Source: Thermus hydrothermalis (GTDB lineage: Bacteria > Deinococcota > Deinococci > Deinococcales > Thermaceae). Taken from it: a stretch of 64,000 bases of DNA. The position numbers and the translations under genes are program-made. Every line of letters starts with the position of its first letter. Position 1 is the stretch's first letter. Below are positions 36,902-46,394 of this stretch, piece by piece. Where the stretch lies: contig NZ_JAKTNT010000005.1 of NCBI RefSeq assembly GCF_022760925.1, positions 62,001 through 126,000 on the forward strand, written 5' to 3'. Under the pieces are notes generated by a model. It was not told where the DNA came from, did not search any database, and worked only from the letters and a program-made list of their open reading frames with translations.

Positions 36902-37945
36902 ATGGGCTATCAAGAAGTCTTCGGCGTCCTGCCCGAGGCCAGCGCCAAGGCCCCGGGCCGGGTGAACCTTCTCGGCGAGCACACGGACTACCAGGAGGGC
37001 TACGTCCTGCCCACGCCTCTCCCCTACGTCACCCAGGTGGAGGCGGGGCGGGCCGAGGGCAGGGTGGAGGCCTACAGCGAAAACCTCAAGGAGCTCCGCG
37101 CCAGACCCCTCCAAAGCGGCCCCCAGGGGGACTTCCTGGACTACCTTTTGGGGGTGGTCTGGGCCCTGAGGGAGGCGGGGCACCCCGTGCCCGGGGCCCG
37201 GTTCTACGTGAAAAGCCAGGTGCCCATGGGGGCCGGGCTTTCCAGTTCGGCGGCCCTCGAGGTGGCGGCCCTAAAAGCCCTTAGGGCCCTTTACCGCCTG
37301 CCCCTGAGCGACCTGGAGGTGGCCCTCCTTTCGCAAAAGGCGGAGGTGGAATACGTGGGGGTCCGGTGCGGCCTCATGGACCAGATGGCGGCGAGCCTGG
37401 GCGAGGTGGGCAAGGCGCTTTTCCTGGACACCAAGACCCTGGCCCACGAGAACCTGCCCCTGCCCCCAGGGAGCCGGGTGGTGGTCCTGGACCTGGGGCT
37501 CAAGCGGCGCCTGGCCGAGGCCGGGTACAACGAGAGGCGCCTGGAGGCGGAGGAGGCGGCCAGGCGGCTTGGGGTGCCCTCCTTGCGCCAGGTGCAGGAC
37601 CTTTGCCTGGTGGAAAGCCTCCCCGCCCCCTTGGACAAGCGGGCCCGGCACATCGTGAGCGAGAACCTGCGGGTGCTTCGGGGGGTAGAGGCCCTAAGGC
37701 GGGGGGACGCCCGGGGCTTTGGCGAGCTCATGACGCAAAGCCACCGCTCCCTCTCCCGGGACTACGAGGTGAGCCTTCCCGAGCTGGACGCCCTGGTGGA
37801 GGCGGCCCTACAGGCGGGCGCCTACGGGGCCAAGCTCACGGGGGCAGGCTTTGGCGGGGCGGTGGTGGCCCTGGTGCCCGAAACGGGCCTGGAAAGCTTC
37901 CGCCAGGCCCTCCTCCAACGCTTTCCCGGGCTTCGCCTCCTGTAG
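36902..37945 (+). CDS. galK: Galactokinase
   Basis: A 347-residue GHMP kinase that phosphorylates galactose at C1. The galactokinase signature is GRVNLLGEHTDYQEGYVLPT, the GHMP phosphate loop VPMGAGLSSSAALEVAAL, the catalytic Asp region CGLMDQMAAS, and the third motif TGAGFGGAVVAL. Length is near the 345-390 norm. No other Leloir-pathway gene is in the window. A downstream three-gene formate dehydrogenase set starts 15 bp later. Confidence 0.93.
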   Translation: MGYQEVFGVLPEASAKAPGRVNLLGEHTDYQEGYVLPTPLPYVTQVEAGRAEGRVEAYSENLKELRARPLQSGPQGDFLDYLLGVVWALREAGHPVPGARFYVKSQVPMGAGLSSSAALEVAALKALRALYRLPLSDLEVALLSQKAEVEYVGVRCGLMDQMAASLGEVGKALFLDTKTLAHENLPLPPGSRVVVLDLGLKRRLAEAGYNERRLEAEEAARRLGVPSLRQVQDLCLVESLPAPLDKRARHIVSENLRVLRGVEALRRGDARGFGELMTQSHRSLSRDYEVSLPELDALVEAALQAGAYGAKLTGAGFGGAVVALVPETGLESFRQALLQRFPGLRLL

Positions 37946-37960
37946 GGGTAAGCTTGAACC

Positions 37961-39433
37961 ATGGAAAACCCAAGCCTCCTCCCCCTCCTGGACGCCCGGC
38001 TACCCCTCACGGAGGAGAAGGTGGCCGAGGCGGCGCGGCTTGCCAGGGTACCCCTGGCCCAGGCCTGGGGGGTGGTGCGCTACTACCCCCGCTACCGCGG
38101 CCTACCCCAAGGCCGCCTCCTGGTGGACGACCCCGTGGCCCGGGCCCGGGGCTTCGCCCGGCTACGGGAAGCGGCGGACGGAAGCTACCCCCCCTTGGGC
38201 CTCGAGGCCCTCTCCCCCATCTACCTGCGCTTCAACCCCGAGGGCCGCTTCGTGGAGTGGCAGGGAAGCCTGGTGCCTTTTAGGGACTTCCGCCTTCCTT
38301 TCTCCCTAGGCCACGGGAAGCGCCTCATCCCCCCGGAGCCCATCCTGTCCCTGGCCCAGTACCGGGCCTTGGGAGGGCTTCAGGCCCTCTTGGCCCTCCT
38401 TCAGGGAAGGGCCAGCCCGGAAGGGGTCTTGCGGGCCGTGGAGGAGGCGGGGCTCTTGGGCCGGGGCGGGGCCGCCTTCCCCGCCCACGTGAAGATGCGG
38501 ACCGTGGCCCAGGGGGCCTCCCCCAAGTACCTGGTGGTGAACGCCGACGAGTCCGAGCCCGGCAACTTCAAGGACCGCTTCCTCCTGGAGCACCACCCCT
38601 TCTTGGTGCTAGAAGGGGCCCTCCTCGCCGCCTTGGCCGTGGGGGCGGATAAGGTCTTCCTCTACGTGCGGGAAGAGTTTGAAGCGGCCCAGGAAGGCCT
38701 GCAAAGGGCCCTAAGCGAACTGGAAGAAGCCGGCCTCCTCCCCGTGCCCACGGAGGTGTTCCGAAGCGGTGGGCTCTACATCTGCGGCGAGGAAACCGCC
38801 CTCCTGGAGTCCATGGAGGGCAAGCGGGCCGAGCCAAGGCTCAAGCCGCCCTTCCCCGGGGAGAAGGGGCTTTGGGGGAGGCCCACCCTGGTGCAGAACG
38901 TGGAAACCCTGGCCAACCTCCCCCTCATCCTGCGGGAGGGTCCTGACGCCTGGCGGGCCCTCGAGCCCAAGCTCTTCTCCATAAGCGGCGACGTGGCCCA
39001 CCCGGGGCTTTACGAGCTCCCCTTGGGCACCCCCCTGGGGGAGGCCTTGCGCCGGGCCGGGGGGGAGCTTGGCGAAGTCCAGGCGGTGCTCCTGGGCGGG
39101 GCGGCGGGGGTCTTCACCCGGGACCTCGCCTTCCCCTTGCGCTTCAAGGAAAGGCTTCCCCTGGGGGCGGGGGCCCTGGTGGCCTTTGGGCGGGACGTGG
39201 ACCTTTGGGAAGTCCTCCTCGGCCTCGTCCACTTCCTCAAGGAGGAGTCCTGCGGCAAGTGCTTCCCCTGCCCCCTGGGCACGGCGGTGCAGGTGGAGAT
39301 GGTAAAGCGGCGCGAGCGGAACCGGGCCCTGGTGCAGGACCTGGCGGAAACCCTAAAAGGAAGCCTCTGTGGCTTAGGCCAGTCCGCTTACTGGGCCTAC
39401 CAGAGCCTTTTGGAGGTGGAAGGTGCGGCTTAG
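37961..39433 (+). CDS. NuoF-like NADH-binding diaphorase subunit with cysteine-less NuoE-like N-terminus
   Basis: A 490-residue beta subunit of an NAD-dependent formate dehydrogenase. Residues about 150-490 are NuoF-like: FMN/NADH region GLLGRGGAAFPAHVKMR and NADESEPGNFKDR, then YICGEETALLESMEGKRAEPR, and a [4Fe-4S] motif with Cys 431, 434, 437 and 470. The first 110 residues resemble the helical part of NuoE (VAEAARLARVPLAQAWGVV) but contain no cysteine, so the [2Fe-2S] centre is missing. The stop overlaps the next gene by 11 bp. Confidence 0.88.
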   Translation: MENPSLLPLLDARLPLTEEKVAEAARLARVPLAQAWGVVRYYPRYRGLPQGRLLVDDPVARARGFARLREAADGSYPPLGLEALSPIYLRFNPEGRFVEWQGSLVPFRDFRLPFSLGHGKRLIPPEPILSLAQYRALGGLQALLALLQGRASPEGVLRAVEEAGLLGRGGAAFPAHVKMRTVAQGASPKYLVVNADESEPGNFKDRFLLEHHPFLVLEGALLAALAVGADKVFLYVREEFEAAQEGLQRALSELEEAGLLPVPTEVFRSGGLYICGEETALLESMEGKRAEPRLKPPFPGEKGLWGRPTLVQNVETLANLPLILREGPDAWRALEPKLFSISGDVAHPGLYELPLGTPLGEALRRAGGELGEVQAVLLGGAAGVFTRDLAFPLRFKERLPLGAGALVAFGRDVDLWEVLLGLVHFLKEESCGKCFPCPLGTAVQVEMVKRRERNRALVQDLAETLKGSLCGLGQSAYWAYQSLLEVEGAA

Positions 39434-40025
39434 GGTAGACGGGAAGGAAGTGGAGGTCCAGGAGGGGGCCCTCTTGCTCCAGGTGGCCCCGGTGCCCACC
39501 CTCTGCCACCATCCCCACACGGAAACCAAGGGCCTTTGCCGGCTTTGCCTGGTGGAGGTAAACGGGCGCCTGCACCCCGCTTGCGCCACCTTGGCCCAGG
39601 AGGGGATGGAGGTGAAGACGGAAACCGAAGCCCTCCGGCGCCTAAGGAAGACCCTTTTGGAGTGGCTTGCCCTCACCACCGACCTCTCCCAAGCGCCGGA
39701 GCTCCTTTCCCTCATGGAGCGCTACGGGGCCGAGCCCGCCCGCTGGCCGGAGGTGGCGGGGCGGAAGGAGCGGGAAGCCTTGAAGGACAACCCCTTCTTC
39801 CTAAGGGACTACGCCAAGTGCGTCAACTGCCGCCGCTGCGTGGACGCCTGCGGGGACGGGATTATGGGGGTGTACGCCCTGACCCTCGAGGACCGGGGCC
39901 TCCTCGCCCACCCCACCACCCCCCTGGGCCGCCCCCTGCCGGAAACCCCTTGCGTCTTCTGCGGCAACTGCGTGCAGGTATGCCCCACGGGGGCCCTACG
40001 GCCCCTGACCTTGGAGGTGGCGTGA
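39423..40025 (+). CDS. NuoG-N-terminus-like iron-sulfur protein of formate dehydrogenase
   Basis: A 200-residue electron-transfer subunit. It has a plant-type [2Fe-2S] domain with Cys 28, 39, 42 and 54, then two [4Fe-4S] motifs, CVNCRRCVDACG and CVFCGNCVQVCP. The usual Cys-rich His-ligated cluster of NuoG is absent. In most FdhA proteins this module is fused to the molybdopterin domain; here it is a separate gene. The GTG start lies inside the preceding gene, and its TGA overlaps the next ATG by one base (TGATG). Confidence 0.85.
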   Translation: MRLRVDGKEVEVQEGALLLQVAPVPTLCHHPHTETKGLCRLCLVEVNGRLHPACATLAQEGMEVKTETEALRRLRKTLLEWLALTTDLSQAPELLSLMERYGAEPARWPEVAGRKEREALKDNPFFLRDYAKCVNCRRCVDACGDGIMGVYALTLEDRGLLAHPTTPLGRPLPETPCVFCGNCVQVCPTGALRPLTLEVA

Positions 40026-42064
40026 TGCGCACCACGTGCCCCTACTGCGGCGTGGGTTGCCAGGTGGAGCCCGAGGTCCAAGGGGGCCGGGTGGTCCGGG
40101 TCCTGGCCCCGGACATCCCCCCCAACCACGGGGCCCTTTGCGTGAAGGGGCGCTTTGGCCTGGACTTTCCCTTTTCCGGGAAGCGCCTCCTCTACCCCAT
40201 GGTGCGGGAAAGCCGGGATGCGCCCTTCCGCAGGGCCACTTGGGAAGAGGCATTGGACTTCGCCGCGGAAAAGCTCCTGGAGGTGCTAAGGCGAAAGGGC
40301 CCTGAGGCCATCGCCGTCTTCCCCTCGGCCAAAACCACCAACGAAGAGGTCTACCTGGCCCAGAAGCTCGCCCGGGCCCTTCTTGGCACCCACAACGTGG
40401 ACCACTGCTCCCGGCTTTGCCATTCCTCCTCCACCGCCGCCCTTTCCCGCTCCTTGGGCGGAGCCAGCATGACGAACCCCATAGAGGACATCTGGAAAAC
40501 GGACCTCTTCCTGGTGGTGGGCTCCAACACCACGGAAACCCACCCGGTGATCGCCGCCATGATCAAGAAGCGGGTGCGCCAAGGGGCGAGGATGATCGTG
40601 GTGGACCCCCGGTACACGGGCATGGCCGAGGCGGCCACCTTGTGGCTTCGGGTGCGCCCCGGCACCGACCTTTTCCTCCTGAACGCCATGGCCCGGTATG
40701 TCCTCGAGGCGGGCCTTTGGGACCGGGCCTACGTGGAGGCCCGCACGGAAGGGTTCGCCGAGTGGCGGGCTTCCTTGGAGGAATACACCCTGGAAAGGGC
40801 GGAGGCCGTCACCGGGGTGGAACGGGAGAAGATCGCCCTGGCCGCCCGGCTTTACGCCACCACGGAGCGGGCCGGGGCCTACTGGGCCATGGGGGTCACC
40901 CAGCACACCAAGGGCACGGCCACGGCCCAGGCCCTGGTGAACCTGGCCCTTCTCACGGGCAAGGTGGGCAAGGAGGGGGCGGGCCTGAACCCGCTAAGGG
41001 GCCAGAACAACGTCCAGGGGGCCGGGGACATGGGGGCCTTGCCCGACGTCTACCCCGGCTACCTGAAGGTGGCGGACGAAGCCGCCAGAAAACGGTTTGA
41101 GGCCCTTTGGGGCGTGCCCCTTAACCCCAAGCCCGGCCTGCGCATGACCGAGGTCTTTGCGGCCATCCCCGAGGTGGAGGCCATCTACCTCATCGGGGAG
41201 GACCCGGTGACCAGCGAGCCCTACCAGGACCACCTCAAGGCCAAGCTCTCCGCCCTCCCCTTCCTCCTCGTCCAGGACATCCTGGAAAACGAAACCACCC
41301 CTTTCGCCCACGTAATCCTCCCCGCCGCCAGCTTTTTGGAGAAGGAGGGCACCTTCACCAACACCGACCGCCGGGTGCAGCGGGTACGGAAGCTCCTGGA
41401 CCCGCCCGGGGAGGCCCGGCCCGACTGGTGGATTACCCAGGAACTGGGCAAGCGCTTAGCCCGGGCCCTGGACCGGCCCTGGCGGGAATACCCGGGACCG
41501 GAGGCCATCTGGGAGGAGGTGCGCCAGGCCATCCCCGAGCTCATGGGGGGCATCTCCTACGCCCGCCTGGAGGCGGAAGGGGTGCGCTGGCCCTGTCCTT
41601 TTGAGGACCACCCCGGGGAAGCGGTGCTCTTCCGCGAGCGCTTCAACACCCCCTCGGGCCGGGCCCGCTTCTTCCCCGCCCCCTATACCCCCCCGGCGGA
41701 ACCCCCCTCGGAGGAGTACCCCTTCACCCTCTCCACGGGCCGGGTGCTCTTTCACTGGCACGGGGGGACCCTTAGCCGCAATAGCCGCCTAAAGGAGGCG
41801 TACCCCGAGCTCAAGGTGGAGGTGAACCCCAAGGACGCCGAAAGGCTCGGGCTCCAAGATGGCGAGCCCATCTACGTGGTGAGCCGCCGGGGCCGGATCC
41901 GCGCCCGGGCCTGGGTGACGGAGCGCACCCCCGAAGGGGTGGTCTACGCCCCCTTCCACTTCGCCGAGGTCCCCGCCAACCGCCTCACCCTGGACGCCCT
42001 GGACCCCGTGAGCCGCATCCCCGAGTACAAGGTGAGCGCCGTGCGGCTAGAAAAGGTGGACTAG
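40025..42064 (+). CDS. fdhA: Molybdopterin formate dehydrogenase catalytic subunit
   Basis: A 679-residue Mo/W-bis-MGD oxidoreductase. The N-terminal [4Fe-4S] motif is TCPYCGVGCQVEPEV with a fourth Cys in GALCVKGRFGLD. Cys 132 followed by His (SRLCHSSST) occupies the position of selenocysteine in E. coli FdhF. Cofactor-binding regions are NPIEDIWKTDLFLVVGSNTTETHP and GAYWAMGVTQHTKGTATAQA. It should oxidise formate to CO2 and pass electrons to the Fe-S protein and diaphorase. No signal peptide is present, so the complex is cytoplasmic. The frame extends farther upstream, but ATG 40025 matches the family start. Confidence 0.9.
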   Translation: MRTTCPYCGVGCQVEPEVQGGRVVRVLAPDIPPNHGALCVKGRFGLDFPFSGKRLLYPMVRESRDAPFRRATWEEALDFAAEKLLEVLRRKGPEAIAVFPSAKTTNEEVYLAQKLARALLGTHNVDHCSRLCHSSSTAALSRSLGGASMTNPIEDIWKTDLFLVVGSNTTETHPVIAAMIKKRVRQGARMIVVDPRYTGMAEAATLWLRVRPGTDLFLLNAMARYVLEAGLWDRAYVEARTEGFAEWRASLEEYTLERAEAVTGVEREKIALAARLYATTERAGAYWAMGVTQHTKGTATAQALVNLALLTGKVGKEGAGLNPLRGQNNVQGAGDMGALPDVYPGYLKVADEAARKRFEALWGVPLNPKPGLRMTEVFAAIPEVEAIYLIGEDPVTSEPYQDHLKAKLSALPFLLVQDILENETTPFAHVILPAASFLEKEGTFTNTDRRVQRVRKLLDPPGEARPDWWITQELGKRLARALDRPWREYPGPEAIWEEVRQAIPELMGGISYARLEAEGVRWPCPFEDHPGEAVLFRERFNTPSGRARFFPAPYTPPAEPPSEEYPFTLSTGRVLFHWHGGTLSRNSRLKEAYPELKVEVNPKDAERLGLQDGEPIYVVSRRGRIRARAWVTERTPEGVVYAPFHFAEVPANRLTLDALDPVSRIPEYKVSAVRLEKVD

Positions 42065-43137
42065 AGGGTGGGGAAGGCGAAGGTTTCGTAGGCCAGCTCC
42101 GCCACGGCGAACCAGCGGTACTCCTCCTCCCGGAAAGCCCAGTAGGCGGTGTACACCTTCTTGTAGGTGGCGTCCTTGGCCGCCTGCTCCTCGTAAAGCG
42201 CCCTCGCCTCCTCCAAGGCCTTCCGCATCACCTCCGTGGGCCACCGCCTCAGGCGCACCCCGGCAGCGAGGAGGCGGCGGAGGGCCTTGGGGTTTTGCGC
42301 ATCGTACTTGGCCATCATGGTGAGGTTGACCTCCTGGGCCGCCACCTGGAAGGCCTCCTGGAACTCCCGGGGCAGGCGGGCCCATTCCCTTTGGGAAACC
42401 AGGAAGGAAAGCTGCGCCGAGGGTTCCCAAAAGGAGGGGTAGTAGTAATAGCGGGCCACCTTGTAAAAGCCCAGCTTCTCGTCGTCGTAGGGGCCGGAAA
42501 ACTCCGTGGCGTCAATGGTACCCCGTTCCAGGGCGGGGTAGATGTCCCCGGCGGCCAGGGTCTGGGGCACCACCCCAAGCCGGCCCATGACCAGGCCGCC
42601 GAGGCCAGGGATGCGCATCCTGAGGCCCTTCAGGTCCGCCAGGGTGCGGATCTCCTTGCGGAACCACCCCCCCATCTGCGCCCCCGTGTTCCCCCCGGGG
42701 AACTGGAGGACGCCGAAGTCGGCGTACACCTCCCGCAAGAGCTCAAGCCCCCCGCCAAAGAGCATCCAGGCGTTGTGCTGGCGGTAGGTCATGCCGAAGG
42801 GCACCCCCCCGTCAAAGGCCAGGGCGGGGTTCTTGCCCACGTAGAAGGGCCCATAAGTGTGCCCTGCCTCCACCGTGCCCTGCTGCACGGCGTCCAACAC
42901 CTGCCCCCCAGGGACGATCTCCCCCGCCTGGTAGACCCGGATCTGGAAACGCCCCCCCGTGAGGTCGGAAACCCGCTTGGCCAGGTCCTCCGCCCCGCCG
43001 TAGAGGGTGTCCAGGCTCTTGGGGTAGCTGGAAACGAGCCGCCAGCGCACCTGGGGCTGGGCCTGGGCGTGGGCTCTGTAGCTGAGGCTTGCCGCTAGGC
43101 CTACCCCCAACCCTTTGAGAAAGCTCCGCCGCCGCAT
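42061..43137 (-). CDS. Tat-exported TRAP-type solute-binding protein, orphan
   Basis: A 358-residue receptor with a twin-arginine signal (MRRRSFLKGLGVGLAASLSYRAHA). The fold-diagnostic segments are WRLVSSYPKSLDTLYGGAEDLA, AGEIVPGGQVLDAVQQGTVEAGH and LKGLRMRIPGLGGLVMGRLG, with FSGPYDDEKLGFYKVARYYY. It resembles the calcium-lactate-binding TRAP receptor of Thermus (recalled). No dctQ or dctM gene lies beside it, so its permease must be encoded elsewhere. The stop overlaps the formate dehydrogenase stop in a CTAG. A ribosome site aaaggaggagaggt precedes the ATG. Confidence 0.87.
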   Translation of the reverse strand: MRRRSFLKGLGVGLAASLSYRAHAQAQPQVRWRLVSSYPKSLDTLYGGAEDLAKRVSDLTGGRFQIRVYQAGEIVPGGQVLDAVQQGTVEAGHTYGPFYVGKNPALAFDGGVPFGMTYRQHNAWMLFGGGLELLREVYADFGVLQFPGGNTGAQMGGWFRKEIRTLADLKGLRMRIPGLGGLVMGRLGVVPQTLAAGDIYPALERGTIDATEFSGPYDDEKLGFYKVARYYYYPSFWEPSAQLSFLVSQREWARLPREFQEAFQVAAQEVNLTMMAKYDAQNPKALRRLLAAGVRLRRWPTEVMRKALEEARALYEEQAAKDATYKKVYTAYWAFREEEYRWFAVAELAYETFAFPTL

Positions 43138-43165: not shown

Positions 43166-43531
43166 TCAGGCCCCGTCCTGACCTAGCAGCTTCCCCACCA
43201 AGGAAAGGAGCGTCTGGGCGTCAAAGGGCTTGCCCAAAAAGGCCCTGGCCCCGGCCTTCAGGGCCTCCTCTTGGCTTTTAGCGGAAACGCTGGCGGAAAG
43301 GGCGAGGACGGGTGGGCCGCCAAGGCGCTTGACCTCCTGGATGACCTCGAGGCCCGAAACCCCGGGCATCACCAGATCGCAGAGCACCAGGTCGTAGGCC
43401 ATGGCGCTAAGGCGCGCCAGCGCCGCCTGGCCCGAGGCCGCCCACTCCACCTGGTGCCCGGCCCTCTCCAGGATGCGGCGCACCGTGTGGGCCACCAGGG
43501 GCTCATCCTCCACCAGCAGGATGCGGGCCAT
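43166..43531 (-). CDS. Single-domain response regulator
   Basis: A 121-residue receiver domain without an output domain. The acidic pocket is in LLVEDEPLVAHTV, the phosphoryl Asp about residue 52 in LVLCDLVMPGVSGLEV, and the conserved Lys in GKPFDAQTLLS. It overlaps the 3' end of the histidine kinase gene by 29 bp, so it is the likely partner. It has no DNA-binding domain and may act on another protein or serve in a phosphorelay. Confidence 0.88.
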   Translation of the reverse strand: MARILLVEDEPLVAHTVRRILERAGHQVEWAASGQAALARLSAMAYDLVLCDLVMPGVSGLEVIQEVKRLGGPPVLALSASVSAKSQEEALKAGARAFLGKPFDAQTLLSLVGKLLGQDGA

Positions 43532-46394
43532 ATAGGGGTAGGATAACCCGGAAAAGGCTCCCCTTGCCCTCCTCCGTCTCCACCTCTATCCGCCCCCCGT
43601 GGGCTTCCACGATGGCCTTGGAGATGTAAAGGCCAAGCCCGGTGCCCGAAACCCCGCGGGCGCCAGCGTTCTTGGCCCGGGCGTAGCGCTGGAAGAGCTT
43701 GGGAAGCTCCTCCTTGGGGATGCCGGGCCCGGTATCCTCCACCTCCAAAACGAGGGTATCCCCCTCCCCCCGGGCCCCAAGCCGGATGCGCCCCCCCTGG
43801 GGGGTGAACTTGAAGGCGTTGGAGAGGAGGTTCCCCACCACCTGAACCAGGCGCTCGGGGTCCGCCTCCACCACGGGGAGCTCCTCCACCTCCACCCGGA
43901 AATCCACCCCGGAAAGCCTCGCCACCCCTTGGAAGCTCTTGGCCAGCTCCAGGAGGTGGGGCCTCAGGTTCACGGGCCGCCGGTTCACCTCAAAGCGGCC
44001 CGCCTCGAGGCGGCTCGTGTCCAGGAGGTTGTCCACCATGGTCTTGAGGCGGAAGGCGCTTTCCAGGATGAGCTCCACGGACTCCTCGGCGCTCGGGGAA
44101 AGCCCCTCCTCCCGCAGAAGCTCCGCCAGGCCCATGATGACGGCGAGGGGGGTGCGGAGCTCGTGGGACACGGCGGCGATGAACTCGCCCTTGAGGCGCT
44201 CGGCCTCGAGGCGGGGCCTTAGGTCCCGCAGGTTCACCACCACGCCCGCTACCCGGGGCTCGTGGAGGAGGTTCCGGCCCCAGGCCTCCATGGGAATGGG
44301 GGTGCCGTCGGCGTGGAGGACGCGGAACTCCCCCGTGCGCACCTCCCCGGGGTGGGCGAGAAGCTCCCGGAAAAGGGCTTCGGCCAGGGAGCGGTCCTCG
44401 GGGTGGACGAAGTCCAGGCCGTTCACGGGCGCCCGCCTGTACCCCTCGGGGTCGTACCCCAAGACCCCCCGCACGCTGGCGCTCACAAAGCGGATATTCC
44501 CCTCCCCATCCAGGACGTAGACCACGTCCTGGGAGTGCTCCATAAGGGCCTTGAGCCGCTCCTCCTCCGCTTCCAAGAGCTCCAGAAAACGGGCCTTCTC
44601 CAGGACCAAGGCCAAAAGGGTCCCCACCTGGGCAAGCCGGGCCAAGAGGCGCTCGCCGAAGCGCCGCCCCTTGCGGTAGCCCAAAAGGAGCCCCCCCCGG
44701 AACGCCCCAGCACGGAAGGGCACCACCAAGGCGCTTTGCAGGCCCAAGGAGGCGGCAAGGGCGCAGTCCCTCGGATGAAGCTCTTCCACCCCCAAAGGGC
44801 TTTCCTCCTCCAGGGCCCGATCCAGCAGGTTGGGTTGGGGCAGGGAAGCGGGCAAGGAGCAGGTGGCGAAGAGCACCCCTTCCCCTTCCGCCAGAAGCAC
44901 CCCCTCGTCCGCGGCGAAAAGGACCAAGAGGCGGCGCACGATGGCCTCCCCCAAGGCCTTTATCCCCTTCTCCCGCAACGCCGCCTGGGCCAGGTCCACC
45001 AGGGCCTGGGTGAAGACCACCTGCTCCCTCAGGGCCCTTTCCATGCGCACCCGCTCGCTGATGTCGTGGAGGACCAGGATGCGCATCTCCCCCACAACCC
45101 GGCCCCGGACGCTGTAGCTCCGCCCCCCCAAGGCAAGCTCTAGCCTCCCCCCTTCCAGGGCTGGGCCTAAGGCGGCGGGGAGGTCCTCCAGGGCCACCTC
45201 GGGTCCCAAGCCCAAGGCCTCCCGCGCCCGGGGGTTGGCGAAACCCCTATCCCCAAAAAGGACCACCACCCCATCGGGAAGGTCTTCCAGCACCTGGGAT
45301 AGCCGCTTTCGCTCCGCCGCCAGGGCCAGGGAAAGCTGGGTCTTTTCCCGGTAGAGCTTGGCGTTCTTCAGGGCTACCCCGGCCACTCCGGCCAAAAGCT
45401 CCACGTAGCCCACCTCCTCCTGTCCCACCGGGGGGCCACCCGGGCCGTGGTCCACCGCCACCACCCCTAAGGGTTCCTCCTCGGCCAGGATAGGCACGTA
45501 GGCCACCGTGGGCCCCGTGTCCTGGCCCACGCCTGGAGGAAGCTTCTCCCGCTCCAAAACCAGGGTCTTCCGCTCCCGAACCGCCCGGGCCAAGGGGTCA
45601 GGGGAGGCCTCTAGAAGGAGGTGGATACGGCTCCTGCCCTCCGTCCAATACACTTCCCGACCCCGGACGGTGAGGTGCCCCTCCAAGCGGCCTTCCTTGG
45701 CCAAGGCCACGGTAACCCGGAAAAAGCCAAACCGCTCGGATAGCGCCCGGGCCAAGGTTTCCAGCACGGCGCTGGGCTCTAGCGAGCGGGCCACCTCCCG
45801 GGCCAAGGCGCTCACGTGGGAGAGGGCCTCCACGTGCCGGGAAAGCTTCTCCAAGGCGGCGTTTCGGCTCGCCAGGAGCTCTCCGTTTTTCAGGGCCAAG
45901 GCGGTGAGTTGGGCGAGGAGGGGCAGGGTGGGCTCTAGGGCCTGGGGGACGCCCTCGAGGCTAAGCACCCCCTTGGCGCCGAAGCGGGGACAGGAGGGGC
46001 AGACCATGGCCCGGGTTTCCCGGGTGGCCCGAGGGCGCTCTTGGCAACGGGCCTCGGGATCGCTCCAGCAAAAGAGGGCCTCCTCCCCCACCACGGGTAA
46101 AAGCCACTCCTCGCCCCGCTTCACCGGTCCTTCGGCGAAAAAGGCTTCCTGCACCGGCCCCTTGCGGTAAAGGGGCAGGGCGATGGCGGAAACCGTGTAG
46201 TGCCGCCCCCGCCCCGAGGCCACCTCGCCCACCAGTTCCCGGGTGGAAGGGTGGTAGAGAAAAAGGGCCGCCCGCTCCACCCCTTCCTCCGTGGCCACCT
46301 CGAGGAGGTTGCGAAGAATCTGCACCGGCTCCAAATCCTTAAGAAGGGCCCTTTGGAAGCGGGCCAGCACCGCAAGTTGCCCGGCCAATCTCAT
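43503..46394 (-). CDS. Soluble multi-sensor histidine kinase (GAF-GAF-PAS-GAF-PAS-HisKA-HATPase)
   Basis: A 963-residue kinase with no membrane segment. By pattern: GAF about 10-165, GAF about 200-345, a PAS-like segment about 360-450, GAF about 460-615, PAS about 625-735, then the HisKA box with His 744 (AAVSHELRTPLAVIMG) and the HATPase domain (NLLSNAFKF, EDTGPGIP, GTGLGLYISKA). The first GAF domain contains a cluster Cys 109, 117, 132 and 135 that could bind metal or an Fe-S centre. It ends with a 29-bp overlap with the response regulator gene. The signal is unknown. Confidence 0.87.
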   Translation of the reverse strand: MRLAGQLAVLARFQRALLKDLEPVQILRNLLEVATEEGVERAALFLYHPSTRELVGEVASGRGRHYTVSAIALPLYRKGPVQEAFFAEGPVKRGEEWLLPVVGEEALFCWSDPEARCQERPRATRETRAMVCPSCPRFGAKGVLSLEGVPQALEPTLPLLAQLTALALKNGELLASRNAALEKLSRHVEALSHVSALAREVARSLEPSAVLETLARALSERFGFFRVTVALAKEGRLEGHLTVRGREVYWTEGRSRIHLLLEASPDPLARAVRERKTLVLEREKLPPGVGQDTGPTVAYVPILAEEEPLGVVAVDHGPGGPPVGQEEVGYVELLAGVAGVALKNAKLYREKTQLSLALAAERKRLSQVLEDLPDGVVVLFGDRGFANPRAREALGLGPEVALEDLPAALGPALEGGRLELALGGRSYSVRGRVVGEMRILVLHDISERVRMERALREQVVFTQALVDLAQAALREKGIKALGEAIVRRLLVLFAADEGVLLAEGEGVLFATCSLPASLPQPNLLDRALEEESPLGVEELHPRDCALAASLGLQSALVVPFRAGAFRGGLLLGYRKGRRFGERLLARLAQVGTLLALVLEKARFLELLEAEEERLKALMEHSQDVVYVLDGEGNIRFVSASVRGVLGYDPEGYRRAPVNGLDFVHPEDRSLAEALFRELLAHPGEVRTGEFRVLHADGTPIPMEAWGRNLLHEPRVAGVVVNLRDLRPRLEAERLKGEFIAAVSHELRTPLAVIMGLAELLREEGLSPSAEESVELILESAFRLKTMVDNLLDTSRLEAGRFEVNRRPVNLRPHLLELAKSFQGVARLSGVDFRVEVEELPVVEADPERLVQVVGNLLSNAFKFTPQGGRIRLGARGEGDTLVLEVEDTGPGIPKEELPKLFQRYARAKNAGARGVSGTGLGLYISKAIVEAHGGRIEVETEEGKGSLFRVILPLYGPHPAGGG

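Follow-up and report, generated by a model that had tools for sequence, protein, structure and literature searches.

Five iron–sulfur clusters carry electrons to the flavin in both of the closest described formate dehydrogenases (FDHs). In the Rhodobacter capsulatus enzyme (RcFDH), the passages of PMC7171172 on the relay trace the path to flavin mononucleotide (FMN) through clusters A1, A2, A3, A5 and B6, with the His-Cys-ligated cluster A4 and the FdsG cluster G7 lying off it. The relay passages of PMC10869683 give an equivalent five-cluster path for Methylobacterium extorquens FDH1 (MeFDH1), in which the beta-subunit cluster B2 is off the relay and no His-Cys cluster is present. Here we analyze a three-gene FDH locus in a 64,000-nucleotide stretch of Thermus hydrothermalis DNA (contig NZ_JAKTNT010000005.1, positions 62,001 to 126,000; hereafter the window), which encodes, in gene order, a diaphorase (protein 1), a NuoG-like iron–sulfur protein (protein 2) and a catalytic subunit (protein 3). 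All 17 loci compared retain the ligands of the five relay clusters and of no others, those of both off-path clusters, the His-Cys [4Fe-4S] and the NuoE-type [2Fe-2S], having been lost from the Thermus enzyme. Because MeFDH1 is already without the His-Cys cluster, only the loss of the NuoE cluster is particular to this lineage. From these sequences, the locus probably encodes a Deinococcota formate:NAD+ oxidoreductase, soluble, cytoplasmic and non-bifurcating, which is related to the MeFDH1 type and whose NuoE domain would be purely structural.

Relation to described enzymes

The MeFDH1-type enzymes (Methylobacterium extorquens FDH1; loci L085, L112, L113 and L114) resemble the Thermus enzyme in their NuoE–NuoF fusion, in the Cys at the metal, and in an alpha side with three [4Fe-4S] clusters, one [2Fe-2S] cluster and no His-Cys cluster; the catalytic subunits of the two are sister groups. 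They differ in that their alpha subunit is one chain and their NuoE domain keeps the four Cys of cluster B2: at least four Cys occur in this domain in five MeFDH1-type rows, compared to none in the Thermus-type domain of 25 out of 25 genomes. The FdsABGD enzymes of R. capsulatus and Cupriavidus necator share the identical on-path relay and a NuoF-type diaphorase, whereas their separate FdsG with a [2Fe-2S] cluster, FdsD, His-Cys cluster A4, extra FdsB domain and fused alpha subunit have no Thermus counterpart. Two departures of the Thermus FDH, the fusion lacking N1a and the separate NuoG module, are shared with HoxFU of NAD-reducing [NiFe] hydrogenase; in the relevant passages on Ralstonia eutropha, HoxF is a NuoE–NuoF fusion without N1a and HoxU a free-standing truncated NuoG (PMC3189943). 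However, HoxFU is partnered by the HoxYH hydrogenase, whereas the Thermus module is partnered by an FDH alpha subunit, with galactokinase and DctP genes rather than HoxYH as neighbors.

What is new in the Thermus enzyme is the absence of the NuoE cluster together with a NuoG module encoded apart, the missing His-Cys cluster being already known from the MeFDH1 type. Within those parts of the open-licence literature that touch on Thermus FDHs, no description of the missing cluster or of the split was found. Genome papers mention FDH genes of T. oshimai and T. scotoductus in passing, and a 2026 paper on T. brevis PS18 names a range of three locus tags, KQ693_09550-09560, as an NAD-dependent FDH (PMC13019369). 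That range is probably the same locus as the one analyzed here; the FDH passages of the paper contain no description of domains, clusters or split.

Other arrangements were seen among the records compared. Plasmids of Natronococcus (L108, 2377-7088) and Halorussus (L109, 2164-7286) carry two-gene FDHs with an FdsB-like diaphorase, a His-Cys motif and no adjacent FdsG. A plasmid of Cupriavidus sp. USMAHM13 (L106, 3517-7643) carries a two-gene FDH whose alpha subunit is without the His-Cys motif and whose diaphorase has four Cys retained in a short thioredoxin-like stretch at its start. In genome G307, an open reading frame (ORF; L138, 1360-3423) reads as an FdsG–FdsB fusion in which the four NuoE-type Cys are kept.

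The cysteine-free domain of the diaphorase

The initial annotation, made from the DNA letters alone, had described the N-terminus of protein 1 as NuoE-like and devoid of cysteine, and both parts of this description were borne out. A Pfam search with the whole protein gave no match to the N-terminal domain at E ≤ 1. A profile of 15 Thermaceae rows of the domain matched 11 Protein Data Bank (PDB) sequences at E ≤ 10, 10 of them of the NuoE class; with orthologues from a second family, f4, added (alignment A4, 11 rows), 28 PDB sequences were matched at E ≤ 1, of which 27 were NuoE-class. The best of these, at 9.8e-6 and over nearly the whole domain, was FdsG of an NAD-dependent FDH (6vw7_A). Compared with a profile of NuoE/FdsG sequences (a small set of six), the domain profile scored 37.6 (E 4.8e-7); the score fell to 0.7 with NuoE reversed and reached no more than 10.1 in 100 column shuffles. 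The Pfam model 2Fe-2S_thioredx matched all but one of the 11 domain rows at E ≤ 1, at best with 2.2e-6; the window's own domain is weak by itself (12.8 bits vs a cut-off of 24.8), and the family-f4 orthologue in genome G059 exceeds the curated cut-off (27.7 vs 24.8 bits). The closest named record to the query domain in the scan is from T. brockianus (95% over the domain).

Cysteine is absent from this domain in 19/19 Thermaceae and 6/6 family-f4 genomes. Other residues occupy the four ligand positions, CLGxC being replaced by PLGLE in Thermus and by SQGLE or SYGLE in family f4. The ratio of nonsynonymous to synonymous substitution rates (dN/dS) was calculated over seven of eight pairs tried (L081 was left out for unequal length), with values of 0.21-0.31 in the N-terminal domain and 0.11-0.24 in the NuoF core. 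Given these values, the N-terminal domain is under purifying selection and is not decaying.

The initial annotation had allowed that a NuoE gene elsewhere might complete the complex; the search turned up the complex I copy only. In the organism's own genome, NuoE is matched by nqo2 of complex I and, weakly, by part of a larger, unrelated-looking protein, and each of the 10 relatives checked has one strong NuoE match; these genomes yielded no free NuoE or FdsG gene other than that of complex I. An FdsD model that recovered 4/4 Fds-type records and 0/3 others gave no match in 111 Deinococcota genomes. The larger protein with the weak NuoE-family match (L002, 1429-2898 on contig C1 of the same genome) has a C-terminal thioredoxin-like ferredoxin stretch; we take it to resemble a CbiX-type fusion.

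The missing [2Fe-2S] center stands as originally described, but the part assigned to it in bifurcation does not: in the RcFDH/MeFDH1 class the cluster lies off the formate-to-NAD path and is not a bifurcation center. Bifurcating HydABC, in the pertinent sections of PMC8880783, uses the NuoE-type cluster C1 together with HydB clusters B2-B4, and FDH is placed there among the non-bifurcating relatives without B2-B5. Protein 1 provides neither the NuoE [2Fe-2S] nor the extra HydB clusters. The whole diaphorase holds only five Cys, none of them before residue 275, and bifurcation of the HydABC type is thereby excluded by sequence. What off-path N1a does is disputed between two studies: one concludes that it serves assembly or stability and does not affect reactive oxygen, and the other describes a switch under redox gating by which reactive oxygen is limited, in which reduction of N1a in Aquifex complex I gates a peptide flip at E95-S96 and NuoE G129 shapes the cavity (PMC6560083). 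Placed by eye, the Aquifex sequences not themselves being aligned, E95-S96 and G129 fall at E197-S198 and G80, and ligand C127 falls at P78. To judge from these sequences, N1a-type gating cannot work in its Aquifex form in the Thermus FDH, and the NuoE-like domain probably serves packing and stability.

The split alpha subunit and the proposed route to NAD+

One [2Fe-2S] and two [4Fe-4S] clusters still have their ligands in protein 2, which is without the His-Cys [4Fe-4S] motif, a point that the initial annotation had missed. Of the other alpha subunits tested, the four of the Fds type and the two from haloarchaea carry this motif; it is lacking in 4/4 MeFDH1-type alpha subunits and in one Cupriavidus two-gene FDH. 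The NuoG-like module, proposed at the outset to stand apart from the molybdopterin domain across a TGATG junction, does so here and is a separate gene in 19/19 Thermaceae and 6/6 family-f4 genomes; the junctions among relatives are TGATG, TGAGATG, TAGCGTG, TAGGATG, TAAGATG or gaps of >100 nt. Separation in all of these genomes, with differing junctions, argues that the split is not a sequencing error. A programmed frameshift across TGATG was considered and ruled out, since the junction differs among relatives. Protein 3 starts directly at the Fe4S4 motif, and the split therefore falls at a domain boundary. The catalytic subunit scores 768.8 bits against the curated NCBIfam model TIGR01591 (cut-off 666.25 bits), and its residue 132 is indeed cysteine and not selenocysteine, at what we take to be the selenocysteine position of E. 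coli FDH-H. The corresponding passages on RcFDH identify Cys386 as the metal ligand (PMC7171172).

From alignments A1 and A2, 4 of 19 near-duplicate Thermaceae rows were omitted. In the catalytic-subunit tree (24 rows; the frame-broken alpha subunit of L111 and the alpha subunit of L104 omitted), four MeFDH1-type alpha subunits form the sister group of the Deinococcota clade, with support of 96/94. Fission of alpha appears to be the simpler reading, because all 15 other rows of this tree come from chains with a fused NuoG-like module.

The NuoF core spans residues 160-485 of protein 1, with Complex1_51K, SLBB and NADH_4Fe-4S each above the Pfam cut-off, and over residues 129-480 the protein shares 42% identity with NuoF of complex I encoded in the same genome. 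Judged by the spacing of motifs, E278 and K295 match E259 and K276 of R. capsulatus FdsB, in which, according to the part of PMC10671435 on cofactor choice, loss of the negative charge at E259 admits NADP+. Given this correspondence, and the exclusion of NADP+ by the E259 charge, NAD+ is the likely acceptor of the Thermus diaphorase. In the proposed mechanism, the three proteins would assemble into one complex with its cluster and metal sites occupied. Formate would be oxidized at a Cys-ligated Mo or W bis-molybdopterin guanine dinucleotide (bis-MGD) center of protein 3, and electrons would pass from the [4Fe-4S] cluster of this protein to the two [4Fe-4S] and one [2Fe-2S] clusters of the NuoG-like protein, then through the diaphorase [4Fe-4S] to FMN and NAD+. 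The alpha subunit would be divided at the boundary between its ferredoxin and catalytic modules, and the fused NuoE domain would have lost an off-path, N1a-type [2Fe-2S] while being retained as a structural part beside the flavin site. The simplified NAD-linked complex first suggested for this locus is thus supported as the best reading, with NAD reduction as its predicted activity, and the cluster-less NuoE–NuoF fusion has a precedent in Ralstonia HoxF.

A more conventional possibility is a normal FdsABGD-type enzyme, in which the N-terminus of protein 1 would be the cysteine-free ferredoxin-like domain of FdsB and FdsG would come from another gene. Rhodobacter FdsB does carry an N-terminal thioredoxin-like domain unable to bind a cluster (sections of PMC7171172 on this subunit), and the four-Cys set is missing from the N-termini of FdsB-type proteins at L105, L110 and L116. 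However, the profile that matched NuoE found no match to the N-termini of FdsB-type proteins (probability 0.1; again a small set, of four), and its PDB matches are FdsG and NuoE and not FdsB. With neither a free NuoE or FdsG gene beyond complex I, nor FdsD, nor a His-Cys cluster, this explanation is largely refuted and we consider it very unlikely. Complex I NuoE (Nqo2) might instead be shared, docking on the FDH diaphorase to restore the [2Fe-2S], and there is one intact nqo2 per genome to supply it; yet the NuoE position is already filled by a fused domain conserved in 25/25 genomes, and nqo2 adjoins the complex I nuoF gene, which makes sharing scarcely credible. Some metal-dependent FDHs, though other enzymes than this one, act as CO2 reductases. 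That the Thermus enzyme is mainly a CO2 reductase, or uses an acceptor other than NAD+, nevertheless seems improbable, the complete NuoF core, the FMN/NAD motifs and the acidic residue excluding NADP+ all speaking against a different acceptor.

Several observations weigh against the formate:NAD+ oxidoreductase proposed here. AlphaFold gave a poor prediction for eight Thermus sequences (mean predicted local distance difference test score 46), so that fold and interface are argued from the sequence profile. In the NuoF tree (27 rows, with diaphorases from 9 of the 17 loci), the diaphorases form their own clade (99/97), which the tree places neither with those of MeFDH1 nor firmly elsewhere, and the NuoG-module tree (18 rows of a short module) leaves the Thermus module unplaced. 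In addition, the growth passages of the T. brevis paper credit formate–nitrate growth to a second, membrane-bound FDH (PMC13019369). On balance, we lean towards a natural minimal formate:NAD+ machine, from which both off-path clusters would have been removed and in which purifying selection would maintain the NuoE fold next to a flavin site that is intact. If so, nature would have set up a clean test of whether activity, stability or reactive-oxygen control depends on N1a: with the fold kept, the ligands lost and a sister group retaining them, a soluble and probably thermostable enzyme would be at hand for addressing the question. An alpha subunit in two pieces may also be a handy modular scaffold for formate/CO2 enzymes.

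Distribution and gene neighborhood

Of the 50 genomes covered by the family search, 19 encode full-length protein 1, and more distant orthologues occur in six family-f4 genomes (G059-G064) with the identical three-gene order; a short piece at the end of a contig in G068 was left out of the count. In G027 and G039, galK and dctP are intact and only remnants of the FDH locus persist between them. FdhD is encoded by all 19 Thermaceae holders of the full diaphorase and by 5/6 family-f4 holders (the remaining one being a genome of 78% completeness); it is lacking in G027, is a fragment in G039, and in G049 lies closely downstream of the catalytic gene. The co-occurrence is not exclusive, since some genomes that lack this FDH encode FdhD too. 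Among 398 Pseudomonadota genomes, seven match the domain profile and the best ORF has at least four Cys in 7/7, so that no cysteine-free relative was found in this one sampled phylum; phyla other than Deinococcota and Pseudomonadota were covered through plasmid records only. One match in Burkholderiales (L071) proved spurious, the gene not being that of an FDH, and was discarded.

The three-gene FDH lies where the initial annotation had placed it, as three plus-strand ORFs with successive overlaps of 11 nt and 1 nt (Table 1). GC content at third codon positions is 0.87-0.89 in the three genes, similar to that of the upstream galactokinase gene.

Table 1. Features of the three-gene formate dehydrogenase, with positions counted from the first letter of the window.
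Feature	Position	Strand	Basis
Diaphorase subunit (protein 1), 490 aa: cysteine-free NuoE-like domain fused to NuoF core (FMN/NAD site, SLBB, [4Fe-4S])	37961..39433	+	Pfam Complex1_51K, SLBB, NADH_4Fe-4S
NuoE/FdsG-like N-terminal domain, residues 1-125 of protein 1, zero Cys	37961..38335	+	Profile comparisons
Flavin-side [4Fe-4S] ligands C431, C434, C437, C470 (protein 1)	39251..39370	+	Sequence/alignment
Free-standing NuoG/HoxU-like iron–sulfur protein (protein 2), 200 aa, GTG start, 11 nt overlap with first gene	39423..40025	+	Fer2_4, two Fer4 motifs; HoxU and FeFe-A6 N-terminus models
[2Fe-2S] ligands C28, C39, C42, C54 (protein 2)	39504..39584	+	Sequence/alignment
Two [4Fe-4S] ligand sets C133, C136, C139, C143, C177, C180, C183, C187 (protein 2)	39819..39983	+	Sequence/alignment
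TGATG stop/start overlap, iron–sulfur gene to catalytic gene	40023..40027	+	Sequence; junction differs among relatives
Formate dehydrogenase catalytic subunit (protein 3), 679 aa, bis-MGD type, proximal [4Fe-4S] (C5, C8, C12, C39)	40025..42064	+	TIGR01591; Pfam Molybdop_Fe4S4, Molybdopterin, Molydop_binding
Catalytic Cys132, codon TGC (protein 3)	40418..40420	+	Sequence

No structured RNA was found at the FDH locus, and a viral-contig scan gave zero matches. The galactokinase gene (36902-37945) ends 15 nt upstream of the FDH genes, and a gene for a TRAP-type DctP solute-binding protein (42061-43137) is convergent with them, overlapping by 4 nt. Beside the DctP gene, the minus strand carries a large GAF/PAS histidine kinase gene and an adjacent response-regulator gene (43166-46394).

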